From Spartinivicinus marinus (lineage in GTDB: Bacteria > Pseudomonadota > Gammaproteobacteria > Pseudomonadales > Zooshikellaceae): a stretch of 64,000 nt of DNA. Positions 33,287-52,853 of this stretch are shown one piece after another. The translations under genes and the position numbers were made by a program. The notes under the pieces are model-generated. The model had not been told where the DNA came from. It worked only from the letters and a program-made list of their open reading frames with translations, and ran no database searches. Location: assembly GCF_026309355.1 (NCBI RefSeq), contig NZ_JAPJZK010000001.1, forward strand, positions 2,934,501 through 2,998,500, written 5' to 3'. Numbering within the stretch: the stretch's first letter is position 1; the number at the start of each line of letters is the position of its first letter.

Positions 33287-33333
33287 GGTATTAAGCCTTG
33301 GGAGTGCCAAGGCTTGGTTTGTGAATAATAAAG

Positions 33334-33789
33334 CTATTTTTCTGTATAACCACTAGGTGGTTTTCTTAGACTATACGAGCTTTTAACTCGATTCTCTTGG
33401 ATATAATAGCTATGATCAGTTTCAGAGGCATCATTATAATCGAATCTCTTGCTTGAAAGATCAAGAATAATATACTTAGTTTCATCATTATCAGTAGAAA
33501 CTTCAGTATAATACCCATCATTCACCTGCCACTGACCTTTTTCTTTGTAGTACTCGTAGGTTTTTTTATTAGGGTCTAAGGTTAGTATTTCTAAGTCATA
33601 TTGCCCATCAGCGTATCGAGTCGCTTTCCAGTAATCTTCGGTACCTGAGTTTTCAACATCATAATCACCATTTCCTTTCCATGTACCTACTAAAGCCTCT
33701 CTTGCCTTTGTATTATCTTTGGGGTCAATAGAGTCACAAGCAGGCAAGAGTAAAATAATAAAAAGGAGTGGGATGATGTTGATTTTCAT
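33334..33789 (-). CDS. Small lipoprotein of unknown function
   Basis: The protein has 151 aa with a lipoprotein signal (INIIPLLFIILLLPAC, lipobox LPAC), so it should be anchored in a membrane by its Cys at about residue 18. The mature part (LVGTWKGNGDYDVENSG, YADGQYDLEIL, KGQWQVNDGYYTEV) looks like a small beta barrel of the lipocalin-like kind that begins GTW. Its function is unknown. It is convergent with glmS. Confidence 0.75.
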   Translation of the reverse strand: MKINIIPLLFIILLLPACDSIDPKDNTKAREALVGTWKGNGDYDVENSGTEDYWKATRYADGQYDLEILTLDPNKKTYEYYKEKGQWQVNDGYYTEVSTDNDETKYIILDLSSKRFDYNDASETDHSYYIQENRVKSSYSLRKPPSGYTEK

Positions 33790-33924
33790 AGTGTATTGAT
33801 AGCTTTAGTTGGCTTAGATAAGCGGTTATTTTAGTATGAAAATTATCAAAAAGCCATTAAGTTTATTTTTTTATAGTTCAAAGCGAGTGATCTTCTATGA
33901 AACCTTTTTAATTGAAGAACTATT

Positions 33925-35100
33925 CTAGTGCCCAACAGCAAGATACATCAATGCAGCCTTTTCATTGGCGCTGCTATTTGAACCTGTTACACGGGTTGCA
34001 AGAAAATCAAACGACTCATTACTCACTCCTCTTATAGCTATGTTTAACTCTTCACCTTCTGTGGGAAGGTCGTTATTGATTCCTGTAGCAACAGCAGCAA
34101 ATATAGACTTTGGAAAAGGCATAGTAAAACTTCCTGTAACAGATACTTTGTTTGAATTAGTTGAACCTGGTGGGCCAATAAAATTTACCTTTCCCCACTG
34201 TAAAATTATCCCACCTAGCCATGATGGAAATGCAATATAGCCATTTTCTTTTAAGGAGCATTTAAATCCAAAGCGTAGTTTCTTAGGAGTAACATACTTA
34301 TTATCAGCTTCACTGCTATTTATTTCTTCATTTGAAGTTGAGTCTGTAATTTTAAGGTACTGCTGATGAGGATCTGGTGCTGCTAAGTGCTGTGAAACCC
34401 TATCATAAACTTTCTTCACCGCTTTAGCCGTAGCCAATTTATCTGAGCTATTATCACTAATGGCATCAGATTTCGCATTAGGTAAATTACCCAGTCCTAC
34501 ATCCACTTTGGTTGGTTTATGTCCTTCATGATACACTTGCTTATCGTGATTTTCCCCTGCATAAATTTCACCGGTTACTCCGATATCGCCGCTAAAAATA
34601 CCGCCAGATTTATTTACAAAGTTGTCATCTACATATTCCCGTGATGCCATTGCAATCGATAAATCTACTTTTAATTCAACATTGCTGGCATTCGCAATTT
34701 GTAAAATAACCTTTAGGTAAAGACTGTTGGATGTACCACTGCTTTGTGGAATTAATGGTTTATAGGTGCTGGGGTATTTGCCAATACAAATCAGGTCGCC
34801 TTCATCATCATACAAACCAAATTCGGTTACATAAAAACCACCGACATCCACAGGAATTAAGGCTTCTGCAATTACCCAATTTTTATTGTATGGGTCAACG
34901 GAGAGGTTGGTTAAATTACCCGTCCAGCGTTCTCTAATCAGGCTGGTAGCTGATTCGTTAGGGAAAGTTTCTTTACCTTCATCAGCACCGCCGTCACCCA
35001 CTTTAATTTTAGTGAGTTTGAGTTTGCCACCCATTAAAGTGGCGTTGGTGAGTTTTGCCTTACCGACTTCAGTAAGTAAGTTATAGTATTGTTTGTTCAT
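33925..35100 (-). CDS. Phage tail-fibre protein
   Basis: The protein has 391 aa. The N-terminus ([65 protein letters not shown]) is the tail-fibre attachment module seen in P2-like phages. A repetitive middle ([20 protein letters not shown]) follows, and then a C-terminal receptor-binding beta region with [17 protein letters not shown]. No baseplate, sheath or chaperone genes are adjacent, so it is a stray phage or tailocin gene. It sits at the border of the defence island. Confidence 0.88.
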
Positions 35101-35642: not shown

Positions 35643-36935
35643 TTACAAAGCGTTGGTTATATCTTTTAACTGAGCCAACATTTTATGTCCTAACGCTGGC
35701 TCTGTCATGCAAATAAATGCGGCCAGCCCTTCAAGGTGCGCTAGGGTCTCGCCTTCCCGTAGTGGTTTGCCGTTTTTAAGATTATGAATTGCGGCCCGTA
35801 ATTCCCGCTTGGTTTTTTGGGGTACACGTGGCGTTTCTTTGCCGTTCACGACCAAGCCTGTGACTTTTTGTCGTCCACCTTTACGAGTGATTCGGGTTTT
35901 TTCAGGGTGAATGATAAAGCCTTCATCTTTGACGATTTGTTTGATTACATGCATCAGCTTGCCTAAGTTTGGTTCTTTATCTTTGCCATCAGGAAGGCTA
36001 AAAGTTAAGTCGTCTGCATATCGGGTATAGCGCCAGCCAAACTTTTCAGCTAAGCCGGTTAACCGTCGGTCAAGCTTTAAACATAATGCATTGGTGATCA
36101 TTGGGCTGGTTGGAGCGCCTTGGGGCAAACAGCGTGGCCCCATTGAAACAAAGTAGGTTTTGTTTTGATCTTCAACGACTTCCCTTGGGGCTTCTGTGAC
36201 TAATAAAGCCAATAAAGTGGCAATTTGCTCGCGGTAGCCTGCTTTGCGGAATAAGCCTTTTACTCGTTTTAAAGTAATAGTGGGGAAAAAGTTTTTCAGA
36301 TCCATTTTTAGCACAATTTTTGCGTTGGTATGCACCTCAGCATTACTTAAAATAGAACGTCCCGCGATAAACCCATGCGCCGCGCCATGTACGACTAACT
36401 GACGGGTGATATTGTCATTAATCCAATATTGCGCTCGTTTTAGCAAGGTTTTAGGTGCCCAGATAGCACGATCACTGCCGTCTTTTTTGGGGATAGTAAA
36501 GCGACGATAATGTAATTCAGTTGCGGCATCTCGATGAAAAGCCAGCCAGCGTAACTGGGGGATGGTAATACCCAGTGCCTGGGCTAACTGTTGTGGTTTG
36601 TCTAATGTTGGTAATTCATTTTCAGCCGCACGTTCTTCTGCGTTATTTAAATCCCAGCGATCAAAATTGTCATGATCATTCCAATAAACACCATCACCTA
36701 AATGCACAATATGATTGGCTTTATAGGCTTGCCAGGCCACTTTCTTTAAACGCCTTTTTTCAGCGGCCTCTGCTTTTAGTTCTTTTTTATACCGGTCTAA
36801 TTCACGCTTAGACATATTATCGGTATCACGACGTTTAACTAAAAAACCGTGTTCTCGTAATTGGCTATCGATATAAGCATTCATGCTGCCGGCTTTTTCG
36901 ATAGCATTCCATAACTGATTTATTTTTTGAGTCAT
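35643..36935 (-). CDS. Retron-type reverse transcriptase
   Basis: The 430-aa RT makes cDNA from the linked non-coding RNA in retrons. It shows all retron marks: NAEVH at 198-202 (the NAxxH motif in the X region), KMDLKNFFPTI with the first catalytic Asp, PQGAPTSP at 271-278, the catalytic YADDL at 306-310, and VTGLVVN at 358-364 (the VTG motif of the Y region, which reads the msr). An N-terminal helical domain (IPQLRWLAFHRDAATELHYR) is usual. There is no fused effector domain. It is the last gene of a four-gene minus-strand operon, 56 bases after the SWIM-WGR gene. Confidence 0.95.
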   Translation of the reverse strand: MTQKINQLWNAIEKAGSMNAYIDSQLREHGFLVKRRDTDNMSKRELDRYKKELKAEAAEKRRLKKVAWQAYKANHIVHLGDGVYWNDHDNFDRWDLNNAEERAAENELPTLDKPQQLAQALGITIPQLRWLAFHRDAATELHYRRFTIPKKDGSDRAIWAPKTLLKRAQYWINDNITRQLVVHGAAHGFIAGRSILSNAEVHTNAKIVLKMDLKNFFPTITLKRVKGLFRKAGYREQIATLLALLVTEAPREVVEDQNKTYFVSMGPRCLPQGAPTSPMITNALCLKLDRRLTGLAEKFGWRYTRYADDLTFSLPDGKDKEPNLGKLMHVIKQIVKDEGFIIHPEKTRITRKGGRQKVTGLVVNGKETPRVPQKTKRELRAAIHNLKNGKPLREGETLAHLEGLAAFICMTEPALGHKMLAQLKDITNAL

Positions 36936-36991: not shown

Positions 36992-38869
36992 TTATTCGGC
37001 AGATGCGTCTAAATAGCCTTTACTTATGAGCTTATCGATTCGCGATAAATAATCCGCTCGGGCCATGGCTACGGAATTAAATTGAAAACGTTGTAATCGC
37101 AAATTTGACCCAGCCCGTCCCCATCGGCAATTAACCCGTTTATGATCCAGAGATAGCTGATACACATGCTCCCCTTGTTTATCTCGGCGGCTATAAGTAC
37201 GGGTTTCCATGGTAACCGTATTGCGCGATTTACTGTTGTTTTTACGCTGTATTTCCCGTTTGGCAAAGGCTAGTCGTAAGGCAATTAAATGTTCGCAGGG
37301 ACCGGCTTTTAACCCTTGCTTGCGAAATAGACTGCAACTGCATTCTGCTTTTGAAACAAAGCCTTCTTCCGACATTAAAAATTGGGGGCGATAATCCCGC
37401 TTGTCTTCGTTAACTTCTACTTTGCCCGTTATTTCTGTACCAGTGCCATAAATACGGTTTTCACTGCTAATGGTGATAGCATTTTTTCTTGCTAATAAAT
37501 CATGGGCCTTCCGTTCCCGCTGGTTGCGAAATTCCAATCGCGATAGGTCTAATGGCGTATTAGTCAGTGGGCGCAGTCGATAAACCTGGTGGGCAATATC
37601 ATACATCAGTTGTCCATGTTGGCAGCCAAGTTGTAAGGCTGCAATGAGCTCTGATTGCTTTAATTTTGTTGTAGTGGCGATAGTGTCCCGGCTGGCAAAC
37701 CAGCTGTTACTGAGGTGCTGAATGATTTTTTTCAGCGCTTTATTGCCTGCATCATTTTTATCAGTAGCTGATGCTCTGGGTAGCAGTAAATCAAAAGTAC
37801 ACGCCTGAGACCAGTCATTGGCAGTAAACCCCGTTAATCCCAGGGTTAATGTCATTGGCCCACAATGTAATACCCAAAAGCAGGGCAGGCCGCTACCGGC
37901 AATATGCACATCCACCGACTCAATAAAGGGCAGTAGTCGCTTCAATAACATCAACCGACGTCGCCCCCATAATCGAACCACTTTGGCCTGTTTGCCCTGA
38001 TAAATGCCTGCACTGGATTCAATCACGGTTTCCCAGGGCTCTAACACTAATCGGGGGGCTTCCCCTGGGACTAACTCAACTCGTAAGCCACGACGTTTGC
38101 CTTTTACATCTGCATTCATGCGTAGCTGACGCAGGCAGTTATACAGGTCCATTGGAGCCAGGCTAAAGCTGTCACTGGGCAACATAGCGGCAGATTGTAC
38201 TTGGAGAAAGCCTCGTAACCAGGAGTCTGGCACCTTAATTTGCTTTTCTAGAGTGTTGTCCCCTTCAACCTCTACGGCAACAGTTGCCTGACCCACTCGC
38301 AGGGTGGCATCTCGATAGCTGCGGAATTGCTGAATGCTGTCATTCAGGGCTTCACTAAAATCGATATTGGTGGTGCCACAAGTAGGCGTGCCTTCCAACT
38401 CCAGGGCAGATAGATCTATGGCCAGATTGGCATAGGTGCCTTCATCTTTGGAAAACACTTCCAACATTAGCTGATCTGGCTGCACACTGATGACCGGATC
38501 TAAAATCAGAAAGGCTAGTGGGTCGTTACGTAGCAGCCAACTAAAATAGTCTTGCTGGGCTTGCCAGGCATTCTTGTTAGCTGACTCATTACGCATCCGC
38601 CGATAGGCTTGATACGCCGTACGATCCTTAGGTTTGTAGCGATAATCACTACCAACGATGGCATACAGCGTAGCAAGTGCCTCTCGCAGGGCCATGGGTT
38701 GCTTAACTTTGCCCACCAGACTTACTGGATCACGCTTGATATTGCCAAACAGGCTTAGCTCAGCACTAGCGTCTTTAGTGGTGACCTGGCTTTGCCCTGT
38801 ATACTCAATGGCTATTTCAGTATGGGAAGGGCTGCTTTCCGCTTCCGTTGTTGTTTTATCATTACTCAT
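36992..38869 (-). CDS. SWIM zinc-finger and WGR-domain protein (retron accessory)
   Basis: The protein has 625 aa. A SWIM zinc finger lies at Cys510, Cys512, Cys525 and His527 (AECSCSLFRKQG...GPCEHL). A WGR domain follows at about 557-620 (HVYQLSLDHKRVNCRWGRAG, ending with KLISKGYLDAS), as in PARP and DNA-break sensing proteins, where WGR contacts nucleic-acid ends. The first 450 residues match no domain I can name, though the LKQSELIAALQLGCQHGQLM area could be a winged helix. The start overlaps the end of the HEAT giant by eight bases, so translation is coupled. I infer a role in sensing or using the msDNA. Confidence 0.88.
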   Translation of the reverse strand: MSNDKTTTEAESSPSHTEIAIEYTGQSQVTTKDASAELSLFGNIKRDPVSLVGKVKQPMALREALATLYAIVGSDYRYKPKDRTAYQAYRRMRNESANKNAWQAQQDYFSWLLRNDPLAFLILDPVISVQPDQLMLEVFSKDEGTYANLAIDLSALELEGTPTCGTTNIDFSEALNDSIQQFRSYRDATLRVGQATVAVEVEGDNTLEKQIKVPDSWLRGFLQVQSAAMLPSDSFSLAPMDLYNCLRQLRMNADVKGKRRGLRVELVPGEAPRLVLEPWETVIESSAGIYQGKQAKVVRLWGRRRLMLLKRLLPFIESVDVHIAGSGLPCFWVLHCGPMTLTLGLTGFTANDWSQACTFDLLLPRASATDKNDAGNKALKKIIQHLSNSWFASRDTIATTTKLKQSELIAALQLGCQHGQLMYDIAHQVYRLRPLTNTPLDLSRLEFRNQRERKAHDLLARKNAITISSENRIYGTGTEITGKVEVNEDKRDYRPQFLMSEEGFVSKAECSCSLFRKQGLKAGPCEHLIALRLAFAKREIQRKNNSKSRNTVTMETRTYSRRDKQGEHVYQLSLDHKRVNCRWGRAGSNLRLQRFQFNSVAMARADYLSRIDKLISKGYLDASAE

Positions 38870-41800
38870 AATTTTTTCCTGCTGCCCTTACCCGCTTAGA
38901 TCGACGCAAACAACGCCATGCCATTTTGCGTAAGTCCTCATCCAGCGACTCATTGGTTGCTACCTTAACCAAGGCTGACTCCCCCTTCGTGCTGGCGACC
39001 TGTGCCAGTGCTTCAATAGCCCCTAAGCGAGTGTTTTCAGCCAGCTCGCTATTTAGTGTGGTTGCCAGTAAGGCATCAGTATTTTGGCTGTTAACCACTT
39101 GGGGAAGCACGATCCCTTGTAAGTGAGCATTTGATAGGTTGGCTTCATTCAGTGATTTAGCGTCGAACCGTTGGGTAAGCTGCTGATAAACCAGCCGATC
39201 ACTGACTGCCTGAGCTGCCAAAGCTTCAACGGGAGTTGCTTTTGTGTTGTTGATAACAGCGGCTGCCAAGCTACGGATGCGGCTATCGGTATGGAAGATC
39301 GCTTCCGCCATTAAAGATTGAATAGCGCTGGTGGGCTTGATGGTTGCCAGCGCTGTGTAAACCGCAAACCGAATATCACTGAAGGCAGGGTCATCCTGAT
39401 GAGCATTGGCTAAACTCAGCAAGCTATCAGCGCTACAGTCTGCTACACCCGCTACCCATACCAGCCGTTGCAGGGTTCGAGAGAGGTTTTCGCTTTCATC
39501 AGCGTGGTAATGGCTCATGCCTTTACGTTCTAACTCTCTCATTTCAGCCCATTGAGTGGCCCAGTTAGCCAGTGCGGCTTCGATAGCTTTTATGCCAGCC
39601 TTGGCTGTAGCACTGCTGTAGCCCATTAAGGTTGCGGCTACTTCCACGGTTTCCATATGAGGACTGCTCAGAGCGGTAGTGGCCTCTTTGAGGGGCAATG
39701 GCTCTCGGTTTAGCAAGCTCATGGCCAGTTGAGTACGAACGCCATTAGCGCAGTCAGGCAGAATACGAAATATTTCTTTGGCTTCGCCAGTCTGGCAAAC
39801 CCGCTGTAATGAACGGCTGAAGTCATCATCTGTTCGGTAAGCCTCAGCCCCACAACTTAAAAAGGCATAATCAGGTGCTAAGGCGTCACCCCCAAATAAT
39901 CGTCTGGCACTGTTTAGGGCTATTGCTCCCCAGCCATAGTAATTAGCACCGTCTTCTGCCAGTACCGCCAATAACAGGTCTTGGGTGGCTGGGTCATTGT
40001 TATAGCCCAGTACTTCCAGGGCAGTTTCCCGGCCAAAGAAGTAAGCATCTACGGCTTTTTCTCGGACTAGCTGCCAGCCAGCATGGGTATCAAAGTAACG
40101 CAAGCCATGCAGGCCATTAATCACCAAGCCCCAACGATCACTGGTGACAAAGCGCTGCAACAGCTCAAATATGGTTTCAGCCTGATCAGATTGGCCTAAG
40201 TGACCAATGGCTTCAGCAGCCACTTCTTGTAGAGCATGCTCGTCATCTTTTGCCAGTCGTAAAAGGGTATCCAAGGCACGCTCATCACCCAGTTTGCCTA
40301 ATGCTTGCACCGCATATTGACGCAGTTTTAAGTCAGCCAGGGTGTCGACCCCAGCCAACAAGATGCTGATACCTTGGGCATTACCAGCTAGGGCCAAGCA
40401 GTAAGCTGCCCAAAACTGAGTGATAGGGTGTTGATGGGTAAGGGCGTTAACGACGCCAGTACTAGGGCCGTTACGTTTTCTGATCCGCCAGCCAAGGGCA
40501 TAGACACTGAGTTCTCTTACCTCATTGTCAGCATGGTGAGTCAAGGTGGCTAACACATCGTTTACTGCATCTGTGGGAGACCAGCGTGCGGCATCAATCA
40601 AGCCCAGTATCAGGTTAACTTTGCCTAACTCAACACAACGCTCTAGCAGCTGCTTCAGTAGCTGATCATGGCGGGGGTGTTGCTGCTCAAGCCAGCTTTT
40701 ATCGACCTTTTCATCTTCAGGGTCTTCAATAGGCTGGTCGTAGCCACTGATGCTGAGTAAGGCCAAGTAAGCCCCTTGCTGCCATCCCGGCTTATCCATC
40801 ATGGTTAGCAGCCTGGAAGCAACAGTGGTTTCTCGAAAGTTACCAGCTGCTTCAAACAGGGTGCTGATTTGCTCGCTAGTGGTGTTAGCCAATGGCTCTA
40901 GCTGCTCAATCAGGTCGAGTAGTGCATTGGCTCCTTTGGGGTCACCTAACTTAACCAGGGCTTGAATTGCCCGGCGCTGTTCACGGCTAAAGCCTCTGGC
41001 TGAGTGATCAAGTAGCAGGTTACTTAGCAGGGTAACGAGTGCATCAAAGGCTTTGGTATCTTTCTTAACTGCCAGGGCATAAGTGCTGCTTTCTTGTACT
41101 TCTGGGTGGCGGGAGTTCAGTGCTTTATGCAGCAGCGTCTGGGCTTTTGGGTTGTCATAGTCATCAGCCAGCCAGTCGATGGCTCTTAGCCGGACGGTTC
41201 TGTCCACTGCATCCAGGGCAGGTTTGGCCACGGTGATGGGGTTACTGGTTTTCAGTAGTAACTTAGCGGCTTCCAGTGCCAGGTCATCAGTACGGCTCAC
41301 CATTGCCTGTTGCAGAATGGCCTGGCCTTGCTTCAGGCTTTCCCCTTCGGTCAGCATTTCCAGGGCTTTTACCCCCAGATCATTATGGCCGGTTTCCAGA
41401 CACTCATTGGCAAGCAGGCTAGTGTCAGTACCTAATATTTGTAACTGGTCTAGCGCATATAGCCGCACGGCCTGGTTAGGGTCACCCAATGCCTGCATAA
41501 ACACTGACTCAGCTGCTGCAAGCAGGCTAGTGTCACGCTGACACATAGCGGACAGTAGCGTGAGTGCCGATTGGCGTACGGTGATAATGGAACTATCGGT
41601 ATAAGCCACCTTACGGCGACCGGCTGCTTTGCCTTGCTCACGGACCAAACCACAATAGGTACCAAAGGCCATTTGCTCCAACTCGGTTTGGTCGACTTTT
41701 ATTTTTGCTGACTTGGCTTGGGTTGGCTTAGTTTTGGCCGACTTGGGTTTTCCTACTGCTGCCAGTAGCCCATTGATTTCTGTTTGATAGCGTTGGGTGT

Positions 41801-44800
41801 GGTGCTGCCAGGCGTGGTCCCAGGCATCTTGCTTGTCGGCAAACAGGTGCGCCAATAACTGTAAGGTTTTGCAGCGCAAACGACTGTTACCGGATATCAC
41901 TAGCTCAGCAAACAGCTCAATCACGTCGTTGCTGATCTGCCACTTTTCACCAGACTGAGTATTAAACAGCGCACTTAGCAGAGTGGTATAAGCCTCTTGA
42001 TGGTGAAAGTGCTCAATGGCTTGGGCGGCAATCAGGCGAAACATCGGGTTTTCGACTGATAGCATGGCTAACAGATGAGTAGGAGACTGGCCTTTGTAAC
42101 CTTGCAGCAAATGCACGACCAGCGCAGGAAAGCTCACTAAATGATCTGGATCATCCAGGTAGCTGCTCAGCCTGTCGGGGCACTCATCACCAAAGCCGAT
42201 GAGTGCACCCACACAAAGTAGCTTTTCAGGTTGGCTGCGACTTTGCGCCAGGGCTTGTTGCATGGCCAGCTGATGGGTGTTGTCTAGCAAAACCAGGCCA
42301 TGAGCAGCAGCGAGCTTCACTTCACTATCTTGGTGTTGCAGGGCCTTCTCTAGCACTTCCTGCTGGTTTACATCGCAGCACCAGGTCAATACCTTGGCGG
42401 CAGCCCGGCGAATAGCACTAATGTCACTTGCCAGTAAGGGCGCTACAGCAGGCACACAAGCAGGCGACTGTAACTGACTTAAACCTGTTAATGCCGATTC
42501 AATAGTGGCTTGCCAGCGCTTAGCGTCGTCCTTGTTTTCAGGCTTTGTTAGCGTTACCAGGCTCAATAGTGGTTCAAGCGCTGCGTCATCACCTAATCGG
42601 GCGCAGGCATTGGCAGCTTGTAATACCACATCCTGGTACTCACTGCGCATAGCCTGCTTTAAGGCGGCATTGGCCTTGGCATCCACTAATGCCTGAATAG
42701 CCTGTTTACGAACGTCTCGTTCACTATCATTGATTGCACTGATCAATAGCTGCTGGGACTGTTCGCCAGGTTTTTTGCTCAGTTCGCTAATGGCAGTTAA
42801 GCGCGTATCACGGTAGGGGCTCTTCAGCGCAGCAGCCAGTGGTGCATAGTCGCGGCCTTTGGTCTTCTTTAAGGTGAAGGCTAGGGCCTCATAACGAATG
42901 CCTTGGTCTGGATCACTGAATAACGCTAGTAACAAGGCCCAGGCCCAGCTTTGGCTGGCCTCGGCTATTAGCTCAGTTTGCACTTCACGACGGATATCTG
43001 CATGGGTGCTCTGTAAGGCAAATCGCAATGCTGACTCCTGGCTGCCACCCATGGGTAGATTTAGCACCGCTTTAAAGGCTTCACTACGCACATTGGGGGT
43101 GCCATCGTTTAAGGCGTGCTGGAAAAGCGCTTCATGTACTGTGGAAACCTCATCTTTTTTGGCCACCCTTACCAGGCTTTGCAAAGCACGGCGACGCACA
43201 TCTGCATGCTGGCTGGTTAATCCCAACTGTACAGCGGTGAGTGGTTGACTCTCATGAATAGCTGCAAGCGCAGTAAATGCAGCGTCTCTGACTTCAGTAG
43301 CAGAGTCATTAAGCAGCGTTTGTAGCCGCTGATCGGTTCGTGGGTCATTTAAGTTGGCTAGCGCATGACAAACCCGTACTCGTGCACTGCTGTCTTCTGC
43401 TCGACTTAATTGGAGTAATAAGCCAAAGGCTCGTGGATCATTCAACAAGGCCAGGCAATGTGCACCGAGCAAGCAGCTATCCAAGGATAAACTGGCTGTG
43501 GCTTGCAGTAGCGGTGCATAGTCGGCAGTGGTGAGTGCAAGTTTGGTTTTGCGGGTTTTAGGCAGCTCTTTGGCTTTTTCGGCAGGCTTTGATTCAACAG
43601 GCTTTGGCTTGGCAGATTTGGATTTGGCAGACGTGGACTGGTCTGCCAAGCCGGCTTCTAAGGCAAACTGTTCAATATCAAACTCTTCAATATCAAAGAG
43701 CAATCGGTGGAGATGTTTATCTCGTTCGCGAATAGCTTTAGCTAATGCCGGACGGCTGAATAGACTGACTAAAAACGCGGTTTGCCGCACCTCTGTGTTA
43801 CTGTCATCCAGGCGACGCCGTAGTGTGGATAACACCCGGGGTTGCTCCAGTAACGCTCGCTGAAACAAGCGAATTAACGAGGCTCGACGAACATCAGCAT
43901 GGCTCGCCCCAAGGGCAACGATGTTGGCTTCTGAGTTAACTGATTCTAAGCGGGCCAATGCCAGCATTCTTACGGGGTAGGCCTTTGCATCCAGTGCGTC
44001 AGTTAAGCGCATCATGGCCCGTTCATCCTCAGCAGCTATATTGGCCAGCGCATTCACTGCCAGTTTGCCCACATCCGTCTGGCCGGTTTTTAGGGCTAAG
44101 GTCATTGGGCGTAAGGGCTCGTCTGATCCAAACCTTTCCTGCAATCGAGCAAAGGTGGCCGTTCTAATGGCTTCATCTTTGTGGTTGAGGTACGACTCGA
44201 CTAACCGTTGGGTGTCAGGGTGGTTAGTGGTAGCAATCCGCTCTGCAATCAGTTGACGTAAAGCAAAATCTCGGTCTTGACGAACTTGTTTATCCAGCAA
44301 CTGTAGTGACGCTTTATCCCCATAGCTGGCTAACCGTTCAATAGCGGCTTGACGATGGGTAACTTGAGCGCTGGCTAATTCGTTTTTAGCCAGTGCATAG
44401 GTGTCGTAAATACGGTGGGTGAGTTGGCCAAACTTACCGGCGGCATCAAGGGCAACAACTGCTAATCGTTGATTGCTGGCGACTACCAAATGAGGTCGGT
44501 GATGAATCGCTGCAATGGCTAACCCAGTGACCGAGCCAATCCCTTCACTAAAAGTAGAAGGGCGAGTGGCTCCACTGCGCAGCCAGCTTTTACAAGTTTT
44601 ATCCTGAGCACCAGTGATAAACCGTTCGGCTGTTGTCTGGATGTTTGCCTGGATAGAAGGGTGCACAATTGCTGTGATGGGAGCGGCATGGCCCGCACCT
44701 CGATCGCGGTCTTCTGGCTCTAGCTTGCCGCGGGCGTGGGTCAGCAACAGTTTATTGTCGTTACCGGCGGATAAAAATCGTAATTCAGTGGGGTCAAACG

Positions 44801-45398
44801 CTAAGGCTGTAACAGCCCCTTCATGTAATTTGTCTGACTCACTCAGTTTAAATGCTGTTTGGTCTTCATCTTCATTTTCAAAAACCAAAACGGTGCCTTT
44901 ATTGGTCCCAACAACCAGCCATTGGCCGCTGGCATCCGCTGCGATAGCCGTTCCGGTTTCTGATTTTTCTGGGGACAGTTGATTGGGAGATAGTTCAAGA
45001 GTTTGTAACTGAGTGCCTTTGGTTTGATCGATAATCTCAATTTTGCGACCAATTAACACCCCTAACCGCTGCTGACTTAATGCAACTAAGGCATTGACTG
45101 ACGTATTTTGGTCGTCGGCTAATTGAGTTAACCGTTTACCATTGCAGTAAATACCACCAGCAATGTCACCTATCCACACTTGGTCCTTTTTATTGGATGG
45201 GCTTTTGGAAACTAATAGTGCACTGGCCCTGTTGTTAAGTGGAATTTCGCTGAGGGCTTGAGTTTCTAAATTAAGCTGATAACACGGCGTAAGCTGTTTT
45301 TCTGGGTGCTCAGTAATAAAATAAACGGTATTTTCACTGGCCCCTAACGCTTTAATATCACCACGATAGGGGAGAAACTTTTCTATTATATCGTTCAT
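38862..45398 (-). CDS. Giant WD40 plus HEAT-repeat protein (retron accessory)
   Basis: The protein has 2178 aa. Residues about 1-330 form a WD40-like propeller (GTAIAADASGQWLVVGTNKG, EGAVTALAFDPTELRFLSAG, ITGAQDKTCKSW). The rest is a long solenoid of HEAT/ARM repeats with regular pairs such as ALAKLGDERALDTLLRLAKD and DVRRRALQSLVRVA. Two Lys/Pro/Ser-rich linkers break it, near residues 590-625 and 1215-1240. No catalytic motif is visible, so it looks like a scaffold or sensor. Base composition is clearly richer in G and C than the flanking genes. It overlaps the upstream gene by four bases (ATGA). Confidence 0.9.
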   Translation of the reverse strand: MNDIIEKFLPYRGDIKALGASENTVYFITEHPEKQLTPCYQLNLETQALSEIPLNNRASALLVSKSPSNKKDQVWIGDIAGGIYCNGKRLTQLADDQNTSVNALVALSQQRLGVLIGRKIEIIDQTKGTQLQTLELSPNQLSPEKSETGTAIAADASGQWLVVGTNKGTVLVFENEDEDQTAFKLSESDKLHEGAVTALAFDPTELRFLSAGNDNKLLLTHARGKLEPEDRDRGAGHAAPITAIVHPSIQANIQTTAERFITGAQDKTCKSWLRSGATRPSTFSEGIGSVTGLAIAAIHHRPHLVVASNQRLAVVALDAAGKFGQLTHRIYDTYALAKNELASAQVTHRQAAIERLASYGDKASLQLLDKQVRQDRDFALRQLIAERIATTNHPDTQRLVESYLNHKDEAIRTATFARLQERFGSDEPLRPMTLALKTGQTDVGKLAVNALANIAAEDERAMMRLTDALDAKAYPVRMLALARLESVNSEANIVALGASHADVRRASLIRLFQRALLEQPRVLSTLRRRLDDSNTEVRQTAFLVSLFSRPALAKAIRERDKHLHRLLFDIEEFDIEQFALEAGLADQSTSAKSKSAKPKPVESKPAEKAKELPKTRKTKLALTTADYAPLLQATASLSLDSCLLGAHCLALLNDPRAFGLLLQLSRAEDSSARVRVCHALANLNDPRTDQRLQTLLNDSATEVRDAAFTALAAIHESQPLTAVQLGLTSQHADVRRRALQSLVRVAKKDEVSTVHEALFQHALNDGTPNVRSEAFKAVLNLPMGGSQESALRFALQSTHADIRREVQTELIAEASQSWAWALLLALFSDPDQGIRYEALAFTLKKTKGRDYAPLAAALKSPYRDTRLTAISELSKKPGEQSQQLLISAINDSERDVRKQAIQALVDAKANAALKQAMRSEYQDVVLQAANACARLGDDAALEPLLSLVTLTKPENKDDAKRWQATIESALTGLSQLQSPACVPAVAPLLASDISAIRRAAAKVLTWCCDVNQQEVLEKALQHQDSEVKLAAAHGLVLLDNTHQLAMQQALAQSRSQPEKLLCVGALIGFGDECPDRLSSYLDDPDHLVSFPALVVHLLQGYKGQSPTHLLAMLSVENPMFRLIAAQAIEHFHHQEAYTTLLSALFNTQSGEKWQISNDVIELFAELVISGNSRLRCKTLQLLAHLFADKQDAWDHAWQHHTQRYQTEINGLLAAVGKPKSAKTKPTQAKSAKIKVDQTELEQMAFGTYCGLVREQGKAAGRRKVAYTDSSIITVRQSALTLLSAMCQRDTSLLAAAESVFMQALGDPNQAVRLYALDQLQILGTDTSLLANECLETGHNDLGVKALEMLTEGESLKQGQAILQQAMVSRTDDLALEAAKLLLKTSNPITVAKPALDAVDRTVRLRAIDWLADDYDNPKAQTLLHKALNSRHPEVQESSTYALAVKKDTKAFDALVTLLSNLLLDHSARGFSREQRRAIQALVKLGDPKGANALLDLIEQLEPLANTTSEQISTLFEAAGNFRETTVASRLLTMMDKPGWQQGAYLALLSISGYDQPIEDPEDEKVDKSWLEQQHPRHDQLLKQLLERCVELGKVNLILGLIDAARWSPTDAVNDVLATLTHHADNEVRELSVYALGWRIRKRNGPSTGVVNALTHQHPITQFWAAYCLALAGNAQGISILLAGVDTLADLKLRQYAVQALGKLGDERALDTLLRLAKDDEHALQEVAAEAIGHLGQSDQAETIFELLQRFVTSDRWGLVINGLHGLRYFDTHAGWQLVREKAVDAYFFGRETALEVLGYNNDPATQDLLLAVLAEDGANYYGWGAIALNSARRLFGGDALAPDYAFLSCGAEAYRTDDDFSRSLQRVCQTGEAKEIFRILPDCANGVRTQLAMSLLNREPLPLKEATTALSSPHMETVEVAATLMGYSSATAKAGIKAIEAALANWATQWAEMRELERKGMSHYHADESENLSRTLQRLVWVAGVADCSADSLLSLANAHQDDPAFSDIRFAVYTALATIKPTSAIQSLMAEAIFHTDSRIRSLAAAVINNTKATPVEALAAQAVSDRLVYQQLTQRFDAKSLNEANLSNAHLQGIVLPQVVNSQNTDALLATTLNSELAENTRLGAIEALAQVASTKGESALVKVATNESLDEDLRKMAWRCLRRSKRVRAAGKNYE

Positions 45399-48300
45399 TG
45401 TTCATTCCCCTTTAATTGAGCACCCATTTTTGGAGTAGTCAATACTGATAATTCAGGGTGCTTTGCCGTAATACGTGTAACAGCGACTAAGCAGGCAGCA
45501 TGTTCGCTTTTACCGCGAGAGCCTTTAAATTCTTGCAGTAAGGGCAAAACGTAGCGGGCAAAATCGTTATCTGCTACGGCAATATCCCGTAATGTTTCAA
45601 TTACATTCAATTTAGCCTTGCGGGTCGGCAATGGTTTTAATTTATTAATCATTTCGCCGTTGCCTTTTTTCTTGCTGGTTTTAGCTGTTTTACTGGAAGA
45701 GCTGTTTTTCGCTAGTCGGCCAGGAGCAATTTCAAACAGAATACGGCGTAAGAATTGTTCCAAGCTGTCATGGTCAGCGGGTAGTGCTGTTGGTTTGACA
45801 GGTGCACCAGCGCCTAAATTCTGCTGGTCAGCTTCGGCTTGTTGTTTGGCTTTTGCCCCAAGCGTAGCAACAGACGACAATTGTGGCTTCCAACCTTGGG
45901 TAATGCCTCGGTCCCGATACCAGTGCCAGAAACGTTGAATGACAAAACCGCGAACGGACCGATCGGGGCTTTCGGTAAGCCGGAATAATTCTTGTGGCAA
46001 TTGTAATCGGGGGTGTTTTTCAATTAACACCATGCCCAGCTTGCGCGCTGATTGATCGGCTGCCTCGCAAAAGCTATACACGGCATCTGGCGTAAGAATA
46101 TCTGGGTCCAGTCGGTAACGCTTGTGTTCTGGAGTAGCATCAGCCGTAAGGGCTTTGGCAATAAAGTCCCGTACCGGTTTATAGGGTGATTCACATAACG
46201 CCACAATATTTTCGATGGGGGGTTGCCAGCGAGCAAATTCCCAATGGGCCAGCTCTAAAGCGAAAGCGCGGATATTGATGCGATTATCATTAAATAATGG
46301 TTGTACCCGTTCAAAACTCAGAAAATCAGCTGGGATTTCTGCACCTGGGTCTACAGGCCGATCGGTTTCTTTTAAACAAATATCTGGGTGGTGATGACGA
46401 ATATACGATAGGGCAAATAAAGTGAGCGGTGCATCTTCTTTGCCTGGCGTAGTCATCATTTTCCACAGACGGTTACAACCTGCATCGATAGCATCATCGG
46501 AAAATTCTCGTTGCTCACCTGTCAGCATTTGTAAAAAAGCAGTCTCGGATATAATTTTTAATTCAGCTCCTTCTTCAATTAATGATTCAGCTTTAACTTG
46601 TTTGGAGCCTTTGCGTCCTTCTCCATATAGTGGCGAGCCATCATCACCAATGACGAGCCATTTTAATTTTTTGGTCACACCAGAGGCGTTGCTGCCACCA
46701 GCGGTAGTCACTTTATTTTTCGCCTCAGAGCGAGTCATCTTGGCTAGCTTGCCAGTAAATAAAAAGCTGTCGCCGCCAAAGTCTACATTAATTTCTGTTT
46801 CAGCACTTGTGGCTGTTTTTGATGGTGGTTGCTCGCCTGTGTCGGGGGCAAAATCTGCGGGTAAAAAGGCCCGGTTCATGACATCCACAGCAAAGTCGTG
46901 ATAAAGCGGCTCGCTGCGTTCAACCAAAGTCATTAACCAATCAAAGCTTAATTGCTCTGGCGTAAAATGACGTATATCGGCCAGCCAAGCAAAAATCGTT
47001 TCGGCTAATTCTTGTGAATAAGTCAGTTCTTTTGCCCAAGGCTTAGATTGCTTAAGGGCTGTTAGCCAGGCATCCTGTTCCCAACTGAGGTGGAAAGCAA
47101 TGGCTTTTAAAAAAGTTAACTCTAGTGATTTGGGGCTTAATAACCCTTGATCTACCCAGTGCGCAATATAGCGTTGGGTTTTGGGGTTAATTAAAGTAGC
47201 TTTTAAAAAGTCAGTGGGTAAACTGTTTAAATCAAATTCCGTTAATGCTTCACAAGCAAAACGAATGGTTTTACGTGCCCGCTGTTGTTGATAGTCAAGC
47301 ATTTCTAATAGCTGACTAAAATAGAGAGCACCTAACGATTTATTTGAATGATGCTGAGTAAGGTGTTTAACCGTAAAATCAAACCCGTTGGATGCAGGTT
47401 GCAACAAATGTTGTTGATACCAGTCTGGCGTTAATTCTCGTTTGCTGAAATGTTTAAGTAAGACACTTTCGGCAAATTGATAACCATAGTGGGTTTCTAA
47501 AATAGCACCCCAGTTATCAAGGCCAATGCCTTTGCGTGGCTCGTGAGATTGAATTAAGTCAAACGCTAGCTGACGTACTGTTTCATTACTGTTATCAATT
47601 AAGCGAATTAAGCTTGGAATGGAGAGGTCCCGTGCATGGGTGCGAGCATAGCTGGCAGCATAAACCCGTGCATTATCTGAAGGGGAGTTAAATAATGCTA
47701 ATACGGTGTCGTGTAAGCCTAATGTTTTAAAAGCTGTTTGTTCAAAGCGGGGGACGTTATCCAACACCCAAATAACAAAGTCGTCTATTGTGGCACTTTG
47801 ATTACCGACTAAGCGGCTAATCCATTGCGGCTCTACTTCACGCAGGCTGGCTCGGAAATCGGTTTTTAACGCAGTAGTGGCATAACGGCGAACTTGTTCT
47901 GCTTGTGCTTGCTCTAGTAATGCAAATAATGGCCTGGGAGTTAATCGCCAGCTGTCGGCAAATGCACGATATTTCAGTAAAGTGCTGGGACGAGAACGAA
48001 AGGTAAAGCGGTTGCGGTTATACTGACCATTTTCATGATAAAAAATATGGTTGGCAATCCAGGTGTGTGACCAGTGGGTGTCATCAGTATAATGGGCTAA
48101 TACATCACAGGCTGTATCTGGGTAGCAAGCCGGAAGTTGCTCGCCTTTTCGGCGTAAATAACGCCAAGCACGACGAGTTAAGTACACTAAGGTACTGCGA
48201 TTGATTTTAAAATGACCGCTGGCTAATGCTTGATCAAAACGGGCGGCCAATGCACCATAAATAATGGTATCATTATCAGCTTCGGCTTGTTTGAATATAG

Positions 48301-48688
48301 CTTTTAATGCCCGCCAGGGGCCGTAAGTTAGCTCAATTTCTGGAAAAACGGCCAGCAAACACCAACGACTGAAAGCATCATTTTTTTCGTAAAGGGCAAA
48401 TAATATTTGGTGAAGTTTTAAGCATTCAGTTAATGGGACTTCAGCATCAGCCGTTTCTAAAGCTTTAATTCGCTCTACCCGTAAAGCCCATTGTTCTTCT
48501 TTCGGTTTTTTGCGGAAGGCACTGGTGGAAATTTCAGCAATAAATGAATCAAATGTATCGGCGCCTTGGCGAATGGGTTTTTCAGGGATTTCTATTTGTT
48601 GGGAAAGTTGAATAATGAGTCTTACAAGCTGAGGGTCGCTTACCTGCAATGCCCGATGTAGTTGATCGAGCGTCAATCGTAGTGACAC
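45395..48688 (-). CDS. BRCT-domain, HEAT-like protein (retron accessory)
   Basis: This is the first protein gene of the operon, 1097 aa. The N-terminal 600 residues are helical and repeat-like (ALFNSPSDNARVYAASYART, SLIRLIDNSNETVRQLAFDL). A BRCT domain follows at about 634-715: FGGDSFLFTGKLAKMTRSEA, then KVTTAGGSNASGVTKKLKWL, as in DNA ligase BRCTs. A second helical region comes after, with a Ser/Lys-rich insert (KNSSSSKTAKTSKKKGNG). BRCT domains often bind DNA ends or phosphates. It begins about 100 bases after the end of the proposed msr-msd RNA and is probably on the same transcript. Confidence 0.88.
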   Translation of the reverse strand: MSLRLTLDQLHRALQVSDPQLVRLIIQLSQQIEIPEKPIRQGADTFDSFIAEISTSAFRKKPKEEQWALRVERIKALETADAEVPLTECLKLHQILFALYEKNDAFSRWCLLAVFPEIELTYGPWRALKAIFKQAEADNDTIIYGALAARFDQALASGHFKINRSTLVYLTRRAWRYLRRKGEQLPACYPDTACDVLAHYTDDTHWSHTWIANHIFYHENGQYNRNRFTFRSRPSTLLKYRAFADSWRLTPRPLFALLEQAQAEQVRRYATTALKTDFRASLREVEPQWISRLVGNQSATIDDFVIWVLDNVPRFEQTAFKTLGLHDTVLALFNSPSDNARVYAASYARTHARDLSIPSLIRLIDNSNETVRQLAFDLIQSHEPRKGIGLDNWGAILETHYGYQFAESVLLKHFSKRELTPDWYQQHLLQPASNGFDFTVKHLTQHHSNKSLGALYFSQLLEMLDYQQQRARKTIRFACEALTEFDLNSLPTDFLKATLINPKTQRYIAHWVDQGLLSPKSLELTFLKAIAFHLSWEQDAWLTALKQSKPWAKELTYSQELAETIFAWLADIRHFTPEQLSFDWLMTLVERSEPLYHDFAVDVMNRAFLPADFAPDTGEQPPSKTATSAETEINVDFGGDSFLFTGKLAKMTRSEAKNKVTTAGGSNASGVTKKLKWLVIGDDGSPLYGEGRKGSKQVKAESLIEEGAELKIISETAFLQMLTGEQREFSDDAIDAGCNRLWKMMTTPGKEDAPLTLFALSYIRHHHPDICLKETDRPVDPGAEIPADFLSFERVQPLFNDNRINIRAFALELAHWEFARWQPPIENIVALCESPYKPVRDFIAKALTADATPEHKRYRLDPDILTPDAVYSFCEAADQSARKLGMVLIEKHPRLQLPQELFRLTESPDRSVRGFVIQRFWHWYRDRGITQGWKPQLSSVATLGAKAKQQAEADQQNLGAGAPVKPTALPADHDSLEQFLRRILFEIAPGRLAKNSSSSKTAKTSKKKGNGEMINKLKPLPTRKAKLNVIETLRDIAVADNDFARYVLPLLQEFKGSRGKSEHAACLVAVTRITAKHPELSVLTTPKMGAQLKGNEQ

Positions 48689-48790
48689 AAATCGTCCCCT
48701 TTCCTGTTAGCTTATTTGTATTGGGTATAGAAAGTATTAGGAAGAGTTGGGAAAGTGCTCCCTCAAAATTAAGAGAGCCCAACCCCTATT

Positions 48791-49037
48791 CTGGAAGGGT
48801 TTACTACTAAACCTGGAACATTGACGACTCACTGATCCCACCGACGGTAGTGCACCTACTTGTTGTGCGGAACCCCGATCGGCGTGGTTGTTCCAGACCG
48901 CAACAACAAGTAGGTGCACTACCGTCGAAGTGGGGCTGAAACAGTCGTCATTGTGCTTGAAAGTTGGAGGACTATTCCCCTCGGTCAGCGCAACGCTAAC
49001 CACAGTGCAGAGCACTCAGCTAAACCTGTACTTCCAG
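48791..49037 (-). ncRNA. Candidate retron msr-msd RNA
   Basis: Read on the minus strand, the order is as follows. Arm a1 is CTGGAAG-TACA-GGTTTA (49037-49021). A G at 49020 in UUUAGC is the likely branching guanosine. Three short hairpins follow: 49016-49004 (AGTGC/GCACT), 49001-48983 (GGTTAGCG/CGCTGACC) and 48982-48967 (GAGG/CCTC). Then a long msd stem has arms starting CGACGGTAGTGCACCTACTT (48927-48903 with 48866-48842), extended outward by CCCCAC/GTGGG and GACGACT/AGTCGTC. Arm a2 is TAAACC-CTTCCAG (48803-48791), complementary to a1 with a four-base bulge. This is the textbook msr-msd plan. Exact ends are uncertain. Confidence 0.82.
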
Positions 49038-49064
49038 CAACTGCTTACTAGAAACAGTTATCTT

Positions 49065-49093
49065 TTTATAACAAAGCGATATGAGTGTCGCAA
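49065..49093 (-). promoter_or_regulatory. Candidate sigma70 promoter of the retron RNA and operon
   Basis: On the minus strand TTGCGA (49093-49088) and TATAAA (49070-49065) are spaced by 17 bases. Start of transcription is expected near 49058, about 20 bases before the a1 arm. No other strong promoter is visible before the first protein gene. Confidence 0.6.
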
Positions 49094-49717: not shown

Positions 49718-50662
49718 ATGGAAAATGGCCCATTTGGTTCTAGAAGTATAATAGAAAAAAAAATTACAGAAGACACGTTAAGAAGTTTTCTAGTTGGTTT
49801 TGATCTCAATGATCAAGGAGAAAGCCAGTATAGATGGTCGAAATTAGTTCAAAAAATAACTAATGTAATTCATGAGTTCTCATTTGGTTTTCATGAAGGC
49901 ACTACTACACATAATACACAAACACTTGAGAAATTAGTAGAAGCTGCAAATTCAATTTATAAGATTGATTCATTCCAGAAAGTTAGAGATATATATAGTA
50001 AAAATGACCATATTTCTGACGAGCTAGATGATAAGTATCTAAGGAGGGGGGAGTTTGGTGAGTTGATACTACACTTAATATTGCGTGATCATTTAAATAC
50101 AATACCTCTACTATCTAAAATATACTTTAAAGATTCACTTGGGCATACCGTTCATGGGTTTGACTGTGTACATGTTGAGCCTGAAAGTAAAACTATGTGG
50201 CTGGGTGAATCAAAGTTATACATAGATCCAAAAAGAGGTTTGAGTGAACTAATTAGAGATATAGAAGAGCACTTTAAGACTAATTATTTAGACTCAGAGT
50301 TTAGTTTGATTGCGAAAAAAATAAAGCACTTTAATAATATTCCTGGGTCTGATCATTGGAAGAAGTTGTTGTCAAATACTACTAAACTTAAAGATAAGTT
50401 AGATGAAATATATATTCCTTTGCTTTGTACTTATAGTTGTGACTTATTTGAAAAATATGATGATGAAAACAAAGAGGAGTTTGTTAATGAGTATGAGGAT
50501 AAAATCAGAAAATTAAAAAAATATTTTGATGATAGGAATAACCACCCGTTAAGATCTAGGCTGAAAATAATCGTGATGTTGTTGCCTGTCAAGTGTAAAA
50601 AGGAATTAGTAAAAAGGCTTCATAAGAAGTTATCTCTACTTCAGTCAGTAGGTGATGAATGA
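49718..50662 (+). CDS. hamA: Hachiman defence protein HamA (DUF1837)
   Basis: The 314-aa protein fits the DUF1837 family, the nuclease subunit of the Hachiman anti-phage system. The restriction-like core is visible: RRGEFGELILHLILRD, then GHTVHGFDCVHVE with the acidic residue, and MWLGESKLY with the ExK. Its stop overlaps the start of the helicase gene. In the studied system HamA acts on DNA when released by HamB. Both genes are markedly more AT-rich than the chromosome around them, which is a sign of transfer. The start ATG follows AAAGG. Confidence 0.88.
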   Translation: MENGPFGSRSIIEKKITEDTLRSFLVGFDLNDQGESQYRWSKLVQKITNVIHEFSFGFHEGTTTHNTQTLEKLVEAANSIYKIDSFQKVRDIYSKNDHISDELDDKYLRRGEFGELILHLILRDHLNTIPLLSKIYFKDSLGHTVHGFDCVHVEPESKTMWLGESKLYIDPKRGLSELIRDIEEHFKTNYLDSEFSLIAKKIKHFNNIPGSDHWKKLLSNTTKLKDKLDEIYIPLLCTYSCDLFEKYDDENKEEFVNEYEDKIRKLKKYFDDRNNHPLRSRLKIIVMLLPVKCKKELVKRLHKKLSLLQSVGDE

Positions 50663-52853
50663 AATGAATGGAATAGTTAAAGAAATTGTATCAAAAGAAA
50701 CTTTTGACTTTGATAAGACGTTTTATATATATAAAGAATGCTCACGACTTCTAATTGAAGATGAAGAGAAAGGAATCTATTTATTAATAAATATATTAAA
50801 CTATAGAAGAAAATTTTCATCGAAGTTGAATGAAATGTTGGCAGATATAATAGAGTCAATTGGATTTAATCCATATGTTCTAAAGGAAAAGCTAACACTT
50901 TCATCCACAAGTGCAAATATAAGGTTAAACTCTAATATTTCAAATTATATTGAAGGAAGGTATTTTCATGATGAACAAAAAAATATATTAGATTTGATTA
51001 AGGCAAAAATAAATGTAATTATAAGTGCTGCACCTACAAGTTTTGGAAAAAGTCTACTAATAGAAGAAATTGTAGCTTCTTGTATGTATAGCAATATTGT
51101 AGTTATTCAGCCAACATTGGCTCTCTTAGATGAGACTAGAAAAAAACTAACCAAATATAACGATAAGTATAAGTTGATTGTTAGGACTACTCAGGAGCCA
51201 TCAGTTGAAAAAAAGAACCTATTCCTATTGACTTCTGAAAGAGTTAATGAATATAAAAATTTTCCATATATTGACTTTCTGGTTATCGATGAATTCTATA
51301 AACTTAGCTCAAACAGAGAAGATGAAAGGTCAGACTCACTTAATAACGCATTTCAATACATACTTGTAAAATACAGTCCAAATTTTTATCTTTTAGGGCC
51401 AAACATTGATGGAATATCTGAAGGGTTTGCTGAGAAATATAATGCAGTATTTTATAAAACAAAATATAATATGGTTGCTTGTGAGCAAATAGATATATAT
51501 AAAAAACATAAAGGTAAGTTTGGGAGTAAAAATGAAAAGAAAATATATAAAGAAAAAATACTATTTGAGTTGCTGTATCAGTTAAAGGGGCAAAATACGA
51601 TAGTTTACTGCTCTTCACCAAATAGAGCAAGGTACCTATCGAGAGAGTATTATGAATTTCTTTGTGATAAAAAATTCCCTATAAAAAATCTTGATTTGCC
51701 TATAATTGAATGGATTGAAAACTATATTTCAAATGAATGGTCCTTAATTGATTGTTTAAAGTATGGGGTATGTGTACATGATGGCGCTTTACAAAAACAT
51801 ATAACATCAACGTTGATTGATTACTTTAATAAAGGAATAGTAAATATTCTTTTTTGTACCTCTACAATAATCGAAGGTGTCAATACAGTAGCTAAAAATG
51901 TTGTTTTTTTTGATAATAAGAAAGGTGGGAATAAAATTGATTTTTTTGATTACTCAAATATTAAAGGAAGAGCTGGCAGGTTGATGGAGCATTATATAGG
52001 AAGGATATATAATTTTAATGAAATACCAAAAAAAGATCAAATATACATAGATATACCCTTTCATGAACAAAGCCCTGTCTCAGATGAAGTACTAATAAAT
52101 ATTAATGAAGAAAATATTGTAAATAAAGAGAGTGAGCAATATAAATATATATCAAGCTTGCCTAATGAAAAAAGGGAAATGTTTTCAAAAAATTCGTTGT
52201 ATATCAAAGGACAGGATGGACTTGTTGACAAATTAAGAAGTGAAATAGATGAAAATTATAATTTGATCTGTTGGGATAAACTGCCTAAGTACGAGCAACT
52301 AGATTACTGTTTAGGTCTTGCATGGGAGTTCCTTATCAAGCCTAATGAATCAGTGAAACCAATGACAAGAAAGAAACTTGTAAAGGTTACATTTGATTAT
52401 GGGGTATATAAAAATATAAATACGCTAATAAAAAATAACTATGAATATAAGAGAAAAATAAAGTCAAATTTGACAAGTAAAGAAGTTTTTGATGAGGCAA
52501 TATGTGAAGCATTTCAGATACTAAGGCATTGGTTTCAATATAAAGTTCCAAAGTGGCTATTAGTTGTGAATGAAATTCAAAAATTTGTGTGTAATGAAAG
52601 AGGGATAAGGTCTGGTAATTATGTGTTTTATGCTACATCAATAGAAACTGATTTTATACGTGAAAATTTAACTATCTTATCTGAATATGGTATTCCAAAA
52701 ACAGCGATTAATAAAATGTCAAAATATATAAATCCAAGTATAAATCAAGACTTTGTATTAAAAGAGATATTTAATAATAGATTATATGAAAAGCCTGGAT
52801 TGTTAGAATATGAGAGAATAAAAATAATTGAAAATTTAAATAAAAAATATTAA
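50652..52853 (+). CDS. hamB: Hachiman defence helicase HamB
   Basis: This 733-aa superfamily 2 helicase has Walker A in SAAPTSFGKSLLIEEI, motif Ia VVIQPTLALLDETRKKL, DExx box VIDEFYK, motif III region in FYLLGPNID, motif IV TIVYCSSPNRA, motif V LFCTSTIIEGVNTVAKNV and motif VI FSN-type IKGRAGRLMEHYIG. The partner gene hamA overlaps it by 11 bases; the start is GTG at 50652 or the ATG directly after. In Hachiman, HamB surveys DNA and restrains HamA. Confidence 0.9.
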   Translation: MMNEMNGIVKEIVSKETFDFDKTFYIYKECSRLLIEDEEKGIYLLINILNYRRKFSSKLNEMLADIIESIGFNPYVLKEKLTLSSTSANIRLNSNISNYIEGRYFHDEQKNILDLIKAKINVIISAAPTSFGKSLLIEEIVASCMYSNIVVIQPTLALLDETRKKLTKYNDKYKLIVRTTQEPSVEKKNLFLLTSERVNEYKNFPYIDFLVIDEFYKLSSNREDERSDSLNNAFQYILVKYSPNFYLLGPNIDGISEGFAEKYNAVFYKTKYNMVACEQIDIYKKHKGKFGSKNEKKIYKEKILFELLYQLKGQNTIVYCSSPNRARYLSREYYEFLCDKKFPIKNLDLPIIEWIENYISNEWSLIDCLKYGVCVHDGALQKHITSTLIDYFNKGIVNILFCTSTIIEGVNTVAKNVVFFDNKKGGNKIDFFDYSNIKGRAGRLMEHYIGRIYNFNEIPKKDQIYIDIPFHEQSPVSDEVLININEENIVNKESEQYKYISSLPNEKREMFSKNSLYIKGQDGLVDKLRSEIDENYNLICWDKLPKYEQLDYCLGLAWEFLIKPNESVKPMTRKKLVKVTFDYGVYKNINTLIKNNYEYKRKIKSNLTSKEVFDEAICEAFQILRHWFQYKVPKWLLVVNEIQKFVCNERGIRSGNYVFYATSIETDFIRENLTILSEYGIPKTAINKMSKYINPSINQDFVLKEIFNNRLYEKPGLLEYERIKIIENLNKKY

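Follow-up and report, generated by a model that had tools for sequence, protein, structure and literature searches.

The type XIII class of retrons reportedly goes back to Mestre et al. 2020 and is represented in PADLOC-DB by the models RT_XIII, SWIM_XIII and HEAT-ARM_XIII. Better characterised retrons, with Ec86 (Eco1) among them, pair a reverse transcriptase (RT) with an RNA that has complementary a1 and a2 arms, a G directly after a1, msr hairpins and a long msd stem, and this msr-msd RNA usually adjoins the RT gene. The window examined here, the whole 64-kb stretch of the Spartinivicinus marinus genome, holds the type XIII gene set: all four proteins of a minus-strand island match models that label them type XIII retron components (E 0 to 1.8e-170), and the retron type is already known. 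The island shares the RNA elements listed above and RT homology with Ec86 and its characterised relatives. Unlike in those systems, however, the RNA lies 12 kb from the RT gene, in front of three large genes, the msd stem of the family is both perfect and variable, and clamp, BRCT, WGR and HEAT partners replace the usual effectors. Adjacency of msr-msd and RT is typical of retrons rather than defining, and the window proteins match the type XIII models regardless. In the order RNA, HEAT/BRCT, propeller/HEAT, SWIM/WGR and RT, the genes are:

45395-48688, minus strand: HEAT-repeat protein with BRCT domain, 1097 aa (HEAT-ARM_XIII, E = 0)
38862-45398, minus strand: beta-propeller and HEAT-repeat protein, 2178 aa (HEAT-ARM_XIII, E = 0; Pfam)
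36992-38869, minus strand: SWIM/WGR protein, 625 aa (SWIM_XIII, E = 5.6e-196)
35643-36935, minus strand: retron reverse transcriptase, 430 aa (RT_XIII, E = 1.8e-170)

The RT matches that of Ec86 over residues 107-418 (E = 1.6e-39) and has a conserved N-terminal extension of about 100 residues. Its motifs, NAEVH at 198 (NAxxH), YADD at 306 and VTG at 358, are conserved in 12 homologues, with VTG reading ITG in two. The BRCT domain, at residues 637-722 or thereabouts (46523-46780), is a clear match of the LigA/PolIII-epsilon type, and the AF2 model of the protein (pLDDT 83) has a BRCT-like order of elements at 641-722. The SWIM and WGR domains of the third protein are weak in Pfam; its AF2 model (pLDDT 73, pTM 0.65) matches PCNA in Foldseek (best E 3.8e-7, TM-score by target about 0.6), which is suggestive of a sliding-clamp (PCNA/DnaN-like) fold. 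The operon proteins revealed neither a nuclease nor another toxic activity. WGR and BRCT domains in other proteins sense nicks and ends.

A first-pass annotation made from the letters of the window had placed an msr-msd RNA upstream of the BRCT gene. Its parts, as we now read them, are as follows.

48791-49037, minus strand: msr-msd RNA, template of the type XIII retron
49037-49021, minus strand: a1 arm, CTGGAAGTACAGGTTTA, pairing with 48803-48791; core GUUUA/UAAAC covaries
48803-48791, minus strand: a2 arm, TAAACCCTTCCAG, pairing with a1
49020, minus strand: candidate branching G, directly after a1; the same in 29/29 aligned RNAs
49004-49017, minus strand: msr hairpin 1, family-wide; two-sided changes in 5/5 pairs
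48983-49001, minus strand: msr hairpin 2, family-wide; 98% of cells paired, two-sided changes in 5/7 pairs
48967-48982, minus strand: third small hairpin, limited to the window and L011 (its closest relative)
48943-48950, minus strand: 5' side of msd outer helix M1; 99.1% of cells paired, no G.U
48822-48829, minus strand: 3' side of M1, partner of 48943-48950
48930-48934, minus strand: 5' side of msd helix M2, partner of 48841-48837; two-sided changes in 6/6 pairs, no G.U
48898-48927, minus strand: 5' arm of msd stem M3, a variable palindrome with one bulged T
48842-48870, minus strand: 3' arm of M3, partner of 48927-48898
48871-48897, minus strand: apical loop, UCUGGAACAACC..GGGGUU, 27 nt with a small hairpin; conserved across phyla
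49064-49093, minus strand: possible promoter by sequence reading, TTGCGA (49093-49088), 17 nt, TATAAA (49070-49065)
48746-48783, minus strand: imperfect hairpin, possible terminator, between the RNA and the HEAT/BRCT gene

The possible promoter falls below the cut-off of a consensus scan, and the possible terminator has a poor T run and receives no call from a terminator scan. The annotation had given the msd stem as about 25 bp; that perfect part is real, but it belongs to a fuller stem, 48927-48898 with 48870-48842, which has 29 bp and a single bulged T and is closed by the 27-nt loop. Its core, 25 perfect bp around a 36-nt loop, is the top inverted repeat of its kind in the 64 kb, the rest of which holds no inverted repeat above 21 bp except nested versions of M3. 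When folded, as the annotation had proposed, the RNA gave a z-score of -8.0, and its complementary DNA strand one of -10.6. No Rfam family covers the RNA, either at the gathering threshold or at E up to 5, where chance hairpin matches (mir-34-like) were the sole hits. A covariance model search found one such RNA in the window genome; a second match (E 0.116) was dismissed as chance, as it sits at the end of a reading frame with no long msd-type stem in 260 nt.

For comparison, three aligned HEAT/BRCT proteins served as the query that retrieved 25 homologous loci, and further ones came from searches of whole genomes. The hosts include gammaproteobacteria, many Planctomycetes, one member of the Desulfobacterales and others; no homologous loci were found on viral contigs, and a plasmid search by protein returned BRCT-only matches. 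The same kind of RNA stands upstream of the HEAT/BRCT gene in nearly all homologous loci, the exceptions being L030 and L033, where the upstream sequence is present without such a stem. A covariance model built on the msr half of 26 RNAs, with the window and its closest relative left out, found the window RNA at 49030-48927 (57.6 bits, E = 1.1e-13). Across 29 homologous RNAs, with the structure set down on L013, 93.5% of cells were paired, against 26-45% with partners slid; two-sided changes occurred in 23 of the 35 pairs, and the covariation score was 0.432 against 0.193 ± 0.010 after shuffling. The annotation had named absence of covariation as grounds for rejecting its own proposal.

Most of the RNA anatomy first read in the window holds across the family. 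The a1/a2 arms are where they had been placed, with 99.3% of their core cells paired and compensatory changes present: next to the G at 49020, whose position was also correct and which is invariant, the core reads GUCUA/UAGAC, GUUUA/UAAAC, GUCCA/UGGAC or GUUAA/UUAAC. The outer msd helices are borne out as well, M1 by its nearly complete pairing and M2 by two-sided changes in every pair. Of three small hairpins proposed, two (49017-49004 and 49001-48983) are family-wide but the third (48982-48967) is confined to the window and L011. A competing hairpin, GGTTTA-GTAG-TAAACC, is present in the window, but the regulatory role suggested for it is unsupported, the full form occurring in only 5 of the 29 homologues. 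The distance to the RT of about 12 kb (11.9 kb in the window) was right, but it had been called unusual: complete homologous loci keep the gene order of the window with the RT 11-12 kb downstream of the RNA (in L015 the RT match is partial). The gap is a rule of the type XIII family, no oddity of the window. An apical-loop CTGG is accompanied by a CC[AC]GG beyond the msd in 25 of the 29 RNAs, which would allow a loop-tail pairing.

The two halves of the RNA differ in the wobble pairs that they tolerate. Helices of the msr and a1/a2 contain G.U in 61 of 466 standard cells and no A.C, whereas M1, M2 and the apical hairpin contain no G.U in 482 cells and 12 A.C, nine of these in the apical hairpin; the missing G.U spans 18 msd pairs. 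The long stem adds 841 Watson-Crick cells with no G.U and one A.C. The msr-msd contrast is strong (Fisher 1.8e-20), although the sequences are related and the cells phylogenetically non-independent. Copies of the RNA elsewhere in planctomycete genomes, described below, behave in the same way, with 2830 Watson-Crick, two G.U and nine A.C cells in their long stems and 89 G.U against one A.C in msr hairpin 2. An A.C in the RNA sense is a tolerated G.T wobble in the cDNA, and a G.U is an A.C mismatch there; thus, selection on the msd acts on the cDNA. Constraint on the complementary DNA would be expected if the msd is reverse transcribed, and it supports that step indirectly. The switch amounts to a sequence-only test for a part of an RNA that acts as DNA, and may be generally useful.

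Together, a1/a2 covariation beside an invariant G, the covarying helices, synteny with the RT and the change in wobble pattern between msr and msd support the assignment of 48791-49037 as the msr-msd RNA of a type XIII retron, in agreement with the first-pass annotation. The alternative is that the element is no retron template but an inverted repeat at the DNA level or a regulatory RNA for the BRCT gene. It does sit in the 5' region of that gene, and L008 and L009 have clear terminator-like hairpins after the RNA, at the position equivalent to 48746-48783. A regulator of this kind would not, however, account for a1/a2 arms with an invariant G, RT synteny or the restriction of G.U to msr helices, nor for dozens of copies far from the gene and almost only in operon-bearing genomes, and we regard it as extremely improbable.

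What the annotation missed is the main point, which is visible by comparison only: the msd stem is hypervariable, perfectly palindromic and exchangeable. Nearly every locus has a perfect palindrome of 28-31 bp, so that length is constant, but the sequences are unrelated, while the apical loop and all flanks outside the stem are conserved across phyla. The window stem matches that of L011 apart from its loop-proximal end and a compensatory change. Four operons carry tandem RNA pairs, and in the Limnoglobus pair the flanks are 97% and 93% identical and the loop 100%, but the stem 38% (random stems, 42%). Among 34 orthologous pairs with shared outer flanks from three related genomes, 14 stems were at least 93% identical and 20 were 30-67% identical, with none in between. 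The alignment breaks at the stem boundary, where the 5' flanks are 96-97% identical. Conversely, a common stem (86-100%) links five pairs of loci that have no outer flanks in common, and in one of these pairs both loci belong to the same genome. This all-or-none identity indicates that stems are replaced as units and have not drifted.

The arms themselves hold an excess of internal inverted repeats (sum 464 against 373.9 ± 9.5 in dinucleotide shuffles of 90 non-redundant stems, z 9.5), and the enrichment peaks at spacer 0. Self-folding of the arms is disfavoured as the cause, because the dominant spacer-0 dyads are incapable of forming an arm hairpin. The peak at spacer 0 makes the internal palindromes look like dyad-symmetric sites in duplex DNA, though a mutational process instead of selection could be their source.

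In known retrons, the trigger is methylation, degradation or binding of the msDNA by phage factors (methylases, an exonuclease and SSB; PMC12409349, PMC12548924). Stems that are fixed in length, perfect as DNA, rich in dyads, exchanged and multiplied would fit as baits for sequence-specific phage enzymes, with the nick- and end-sensing domains of the operon proteins keeping watch over them. We therefore propose that transcription at the start of the island yields the RNA, which is bound by the RT encoded 12 kb downstream; that DNA synthesis would begin at the 2'-OH of G49020 and copy the msd into single-stranded DNA; and that the main feature of this msDNA would be a fully paired hairpin of 29-30 bp serving as duplex bait. 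Its length and perfect pairing would be kept constant and its sequence left free for exchange, and its dyad-symmetric sites would be of the kind read by dimeric proteins that bind, cut or modify DNA. The RT-msDNA complex would be held by the clamp-like SWIM/WGR, HEAT/BRCT and propeller/HEAT proteins, and binding, modification or cleavage of the bait by a phage enzyme would release or activate the effector. Taken as a whole, with template RNA, duplex bait and effector trigger, we consider this the best explanation and a reasonably likely one.

Its main rival accepts the type XIII msr-msd but holds that the sequence of the stem is irrelevant: a stiff duplex of fixed length suffices, template switching re-perfects it and gene conversion shuffles it. 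Stem length is indeed fixed and sequence free, some hairpins are chimeric, deleted or inverted (L098, L115, L089), and quasi-palindrome correction is an established mutational process. Gradual repair, however, is unlike the pattern in orthologous stems, which are identical or unrelated with nothing between; stems in tandem copies stay unrelated despite near-identical flanks; and it is spacer-free palindromes that are most enriched. We judge that a role for duplex length alone is unlikely, though it deserves to be taken seriously.

A further alternative is that the stems are an acquired memory, invader sequences captured in the manner of CRISPR spacers and made into hairpins by the RT. Constant flanks surround a variable unit of about 29 bp, and close relatives hold unrelated stems at the same locus, as such a memory would have it. 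When a sample of 30 stems was compared with 50,697 phage records, however, none found a match even at E up to 10, a result that weighs against sequenced phages as the source but leaves a bait role untouched. Some stems, moreover, are conserved from genome to genome and reappear at unlinked loci, and captured DNA is not expected to hold internal palindromes. We find memory of this sort very unlikely.

The bait reading gains a further dimension from planctomycete genomes, in which a motif search found many copies of the RNA far from the operon. In a survey of 95 genomes (Gemmataceae as taken from record titles), the motif was present in 30 and the HEAT-ARM gene in 30: 28 had both, two the motif only, two the gene only and 63 neither (Fisher 1.9e-19). 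Fourteen of the 95 genomes carry 8-25 copies, with almost nil for a backward-motif control, and the 25 copies of one single-contig genome, including the one at the operon, are spread across 10 Mb. Stems without mismatch were found in 86 of 98 parsed dispersed copies. Complementarity of a1 with its own a2 scored 9.68, against 6.13 ± 0.18 after arms were swapped between copies, and a promoter-like box (TTG-N16..20-TAnnnY) stands at the equivalent place in 63 of 96 copies, against 5.6 expected. Judged by these sequence features, the dispersed copies look like separate RNA genes and not decaying debris, though a few are deleted, inverted or chimeric. L089, L098 and L115, all dispersed, have respectively an inverted loop, a chimeric hairpin and a deleted stem; such faulty products are rare and may indicate how stems recombine.

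As part of the best explanation given above, a dispersed RNA library would, in some planctomycetes, widen the repertoire of baits, with stem-loops swapped as cassettes. Extended to immunity by repertoire, the proposal is that the msd is a slot for exchangeable palindromes and that a planctomycete RT may serve up to about 25 msr-msd genes in trans, providing many sequence-specific baits per cell that are gained or swapped by recombination, possibly via the msDNA itself. We offer this tentatively, as possible but somewhat short of probable. The idea is drawn from relatives, the window genome having one RNA, and multi-copy genomes give two to six RT_XIII matches, so that more than one RT may serve the RNAs. 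Among the copies of G827, G828 and G830, two RNA subfamilies that differ in the outer msd helix (GAAGG..CCTTC and GA[AC]CG..CGTTC) coexist in one genome, and they are perhaps served by different RTs.

Several other systems resemble this one in part. CRISPR arrays likewise set variable units, each about 29-30 bp long, in a constant frame, and a genome holds several of them, but the retron units are palindromic, dispersed and swapped between loci, and those sampled have no phage match, so the invader-derived units of a CRISPR-like memory were not found. REP/REPIN elements with their RAYT transposases are also palindromes present in numerous dispersed copies and linked to a single family of enzymes; in the retron, by contrast, every copy is a complete structured RNA gene whose a1/a2 arms are private to it, and palindrome sequences vary from copy to copy. 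Diversity-generating retroelements share RT-linked sequence diversity, but the retron stem is replaced whole, with pairing retained. The literature that we searched, which lies outside the original classification papers and leaves an earlier prediction of the RNA possible, held no account of the RNA anatomy, the strand-asymmetric constraint, the exchangeable stem or the dispersed library. The present analysis supplies a template RNA, with covariation, for a retron type whose RNA lies far from its RT, and the variable perfect stem makes the role of msDNA sequence, a long-standing question, directly testable by stem swapping. Dispersed msr-msd libraries, if true, would be a new bacterial way of keeping a diverse innate repertoire and would offer biotechnology natural, stem-exchangeable producers of single-stranded DNA.

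Further RTs matching RT_XIII occur in the same planctomycete genomes. In the compact sister retron of L237 (6318-6730 and 6822-10928), an RT with a long N-terminal extension lies behind a SWIM_XIII protein 34% identical to that of the window, with no HEAT genes nearby. Upstream are two tandem elements with conserved flanks and perfect 25-bp stems that are mutually unrelated, so the habit of variable palindromes reaches beyond the four-gene operon.

In the window, the retron sits in a defence island, as indicated by the Hachiman system beside it (49718-52853, plus strand; HamA 3.8e-133, HamB 1.2e-220). The island is bordered at its RT end, at 31454-35100, by a glmS-like gene (SIS and GATase domains) and a gene for a phage tail-collar fibre, a region that may be an integration hotspot.
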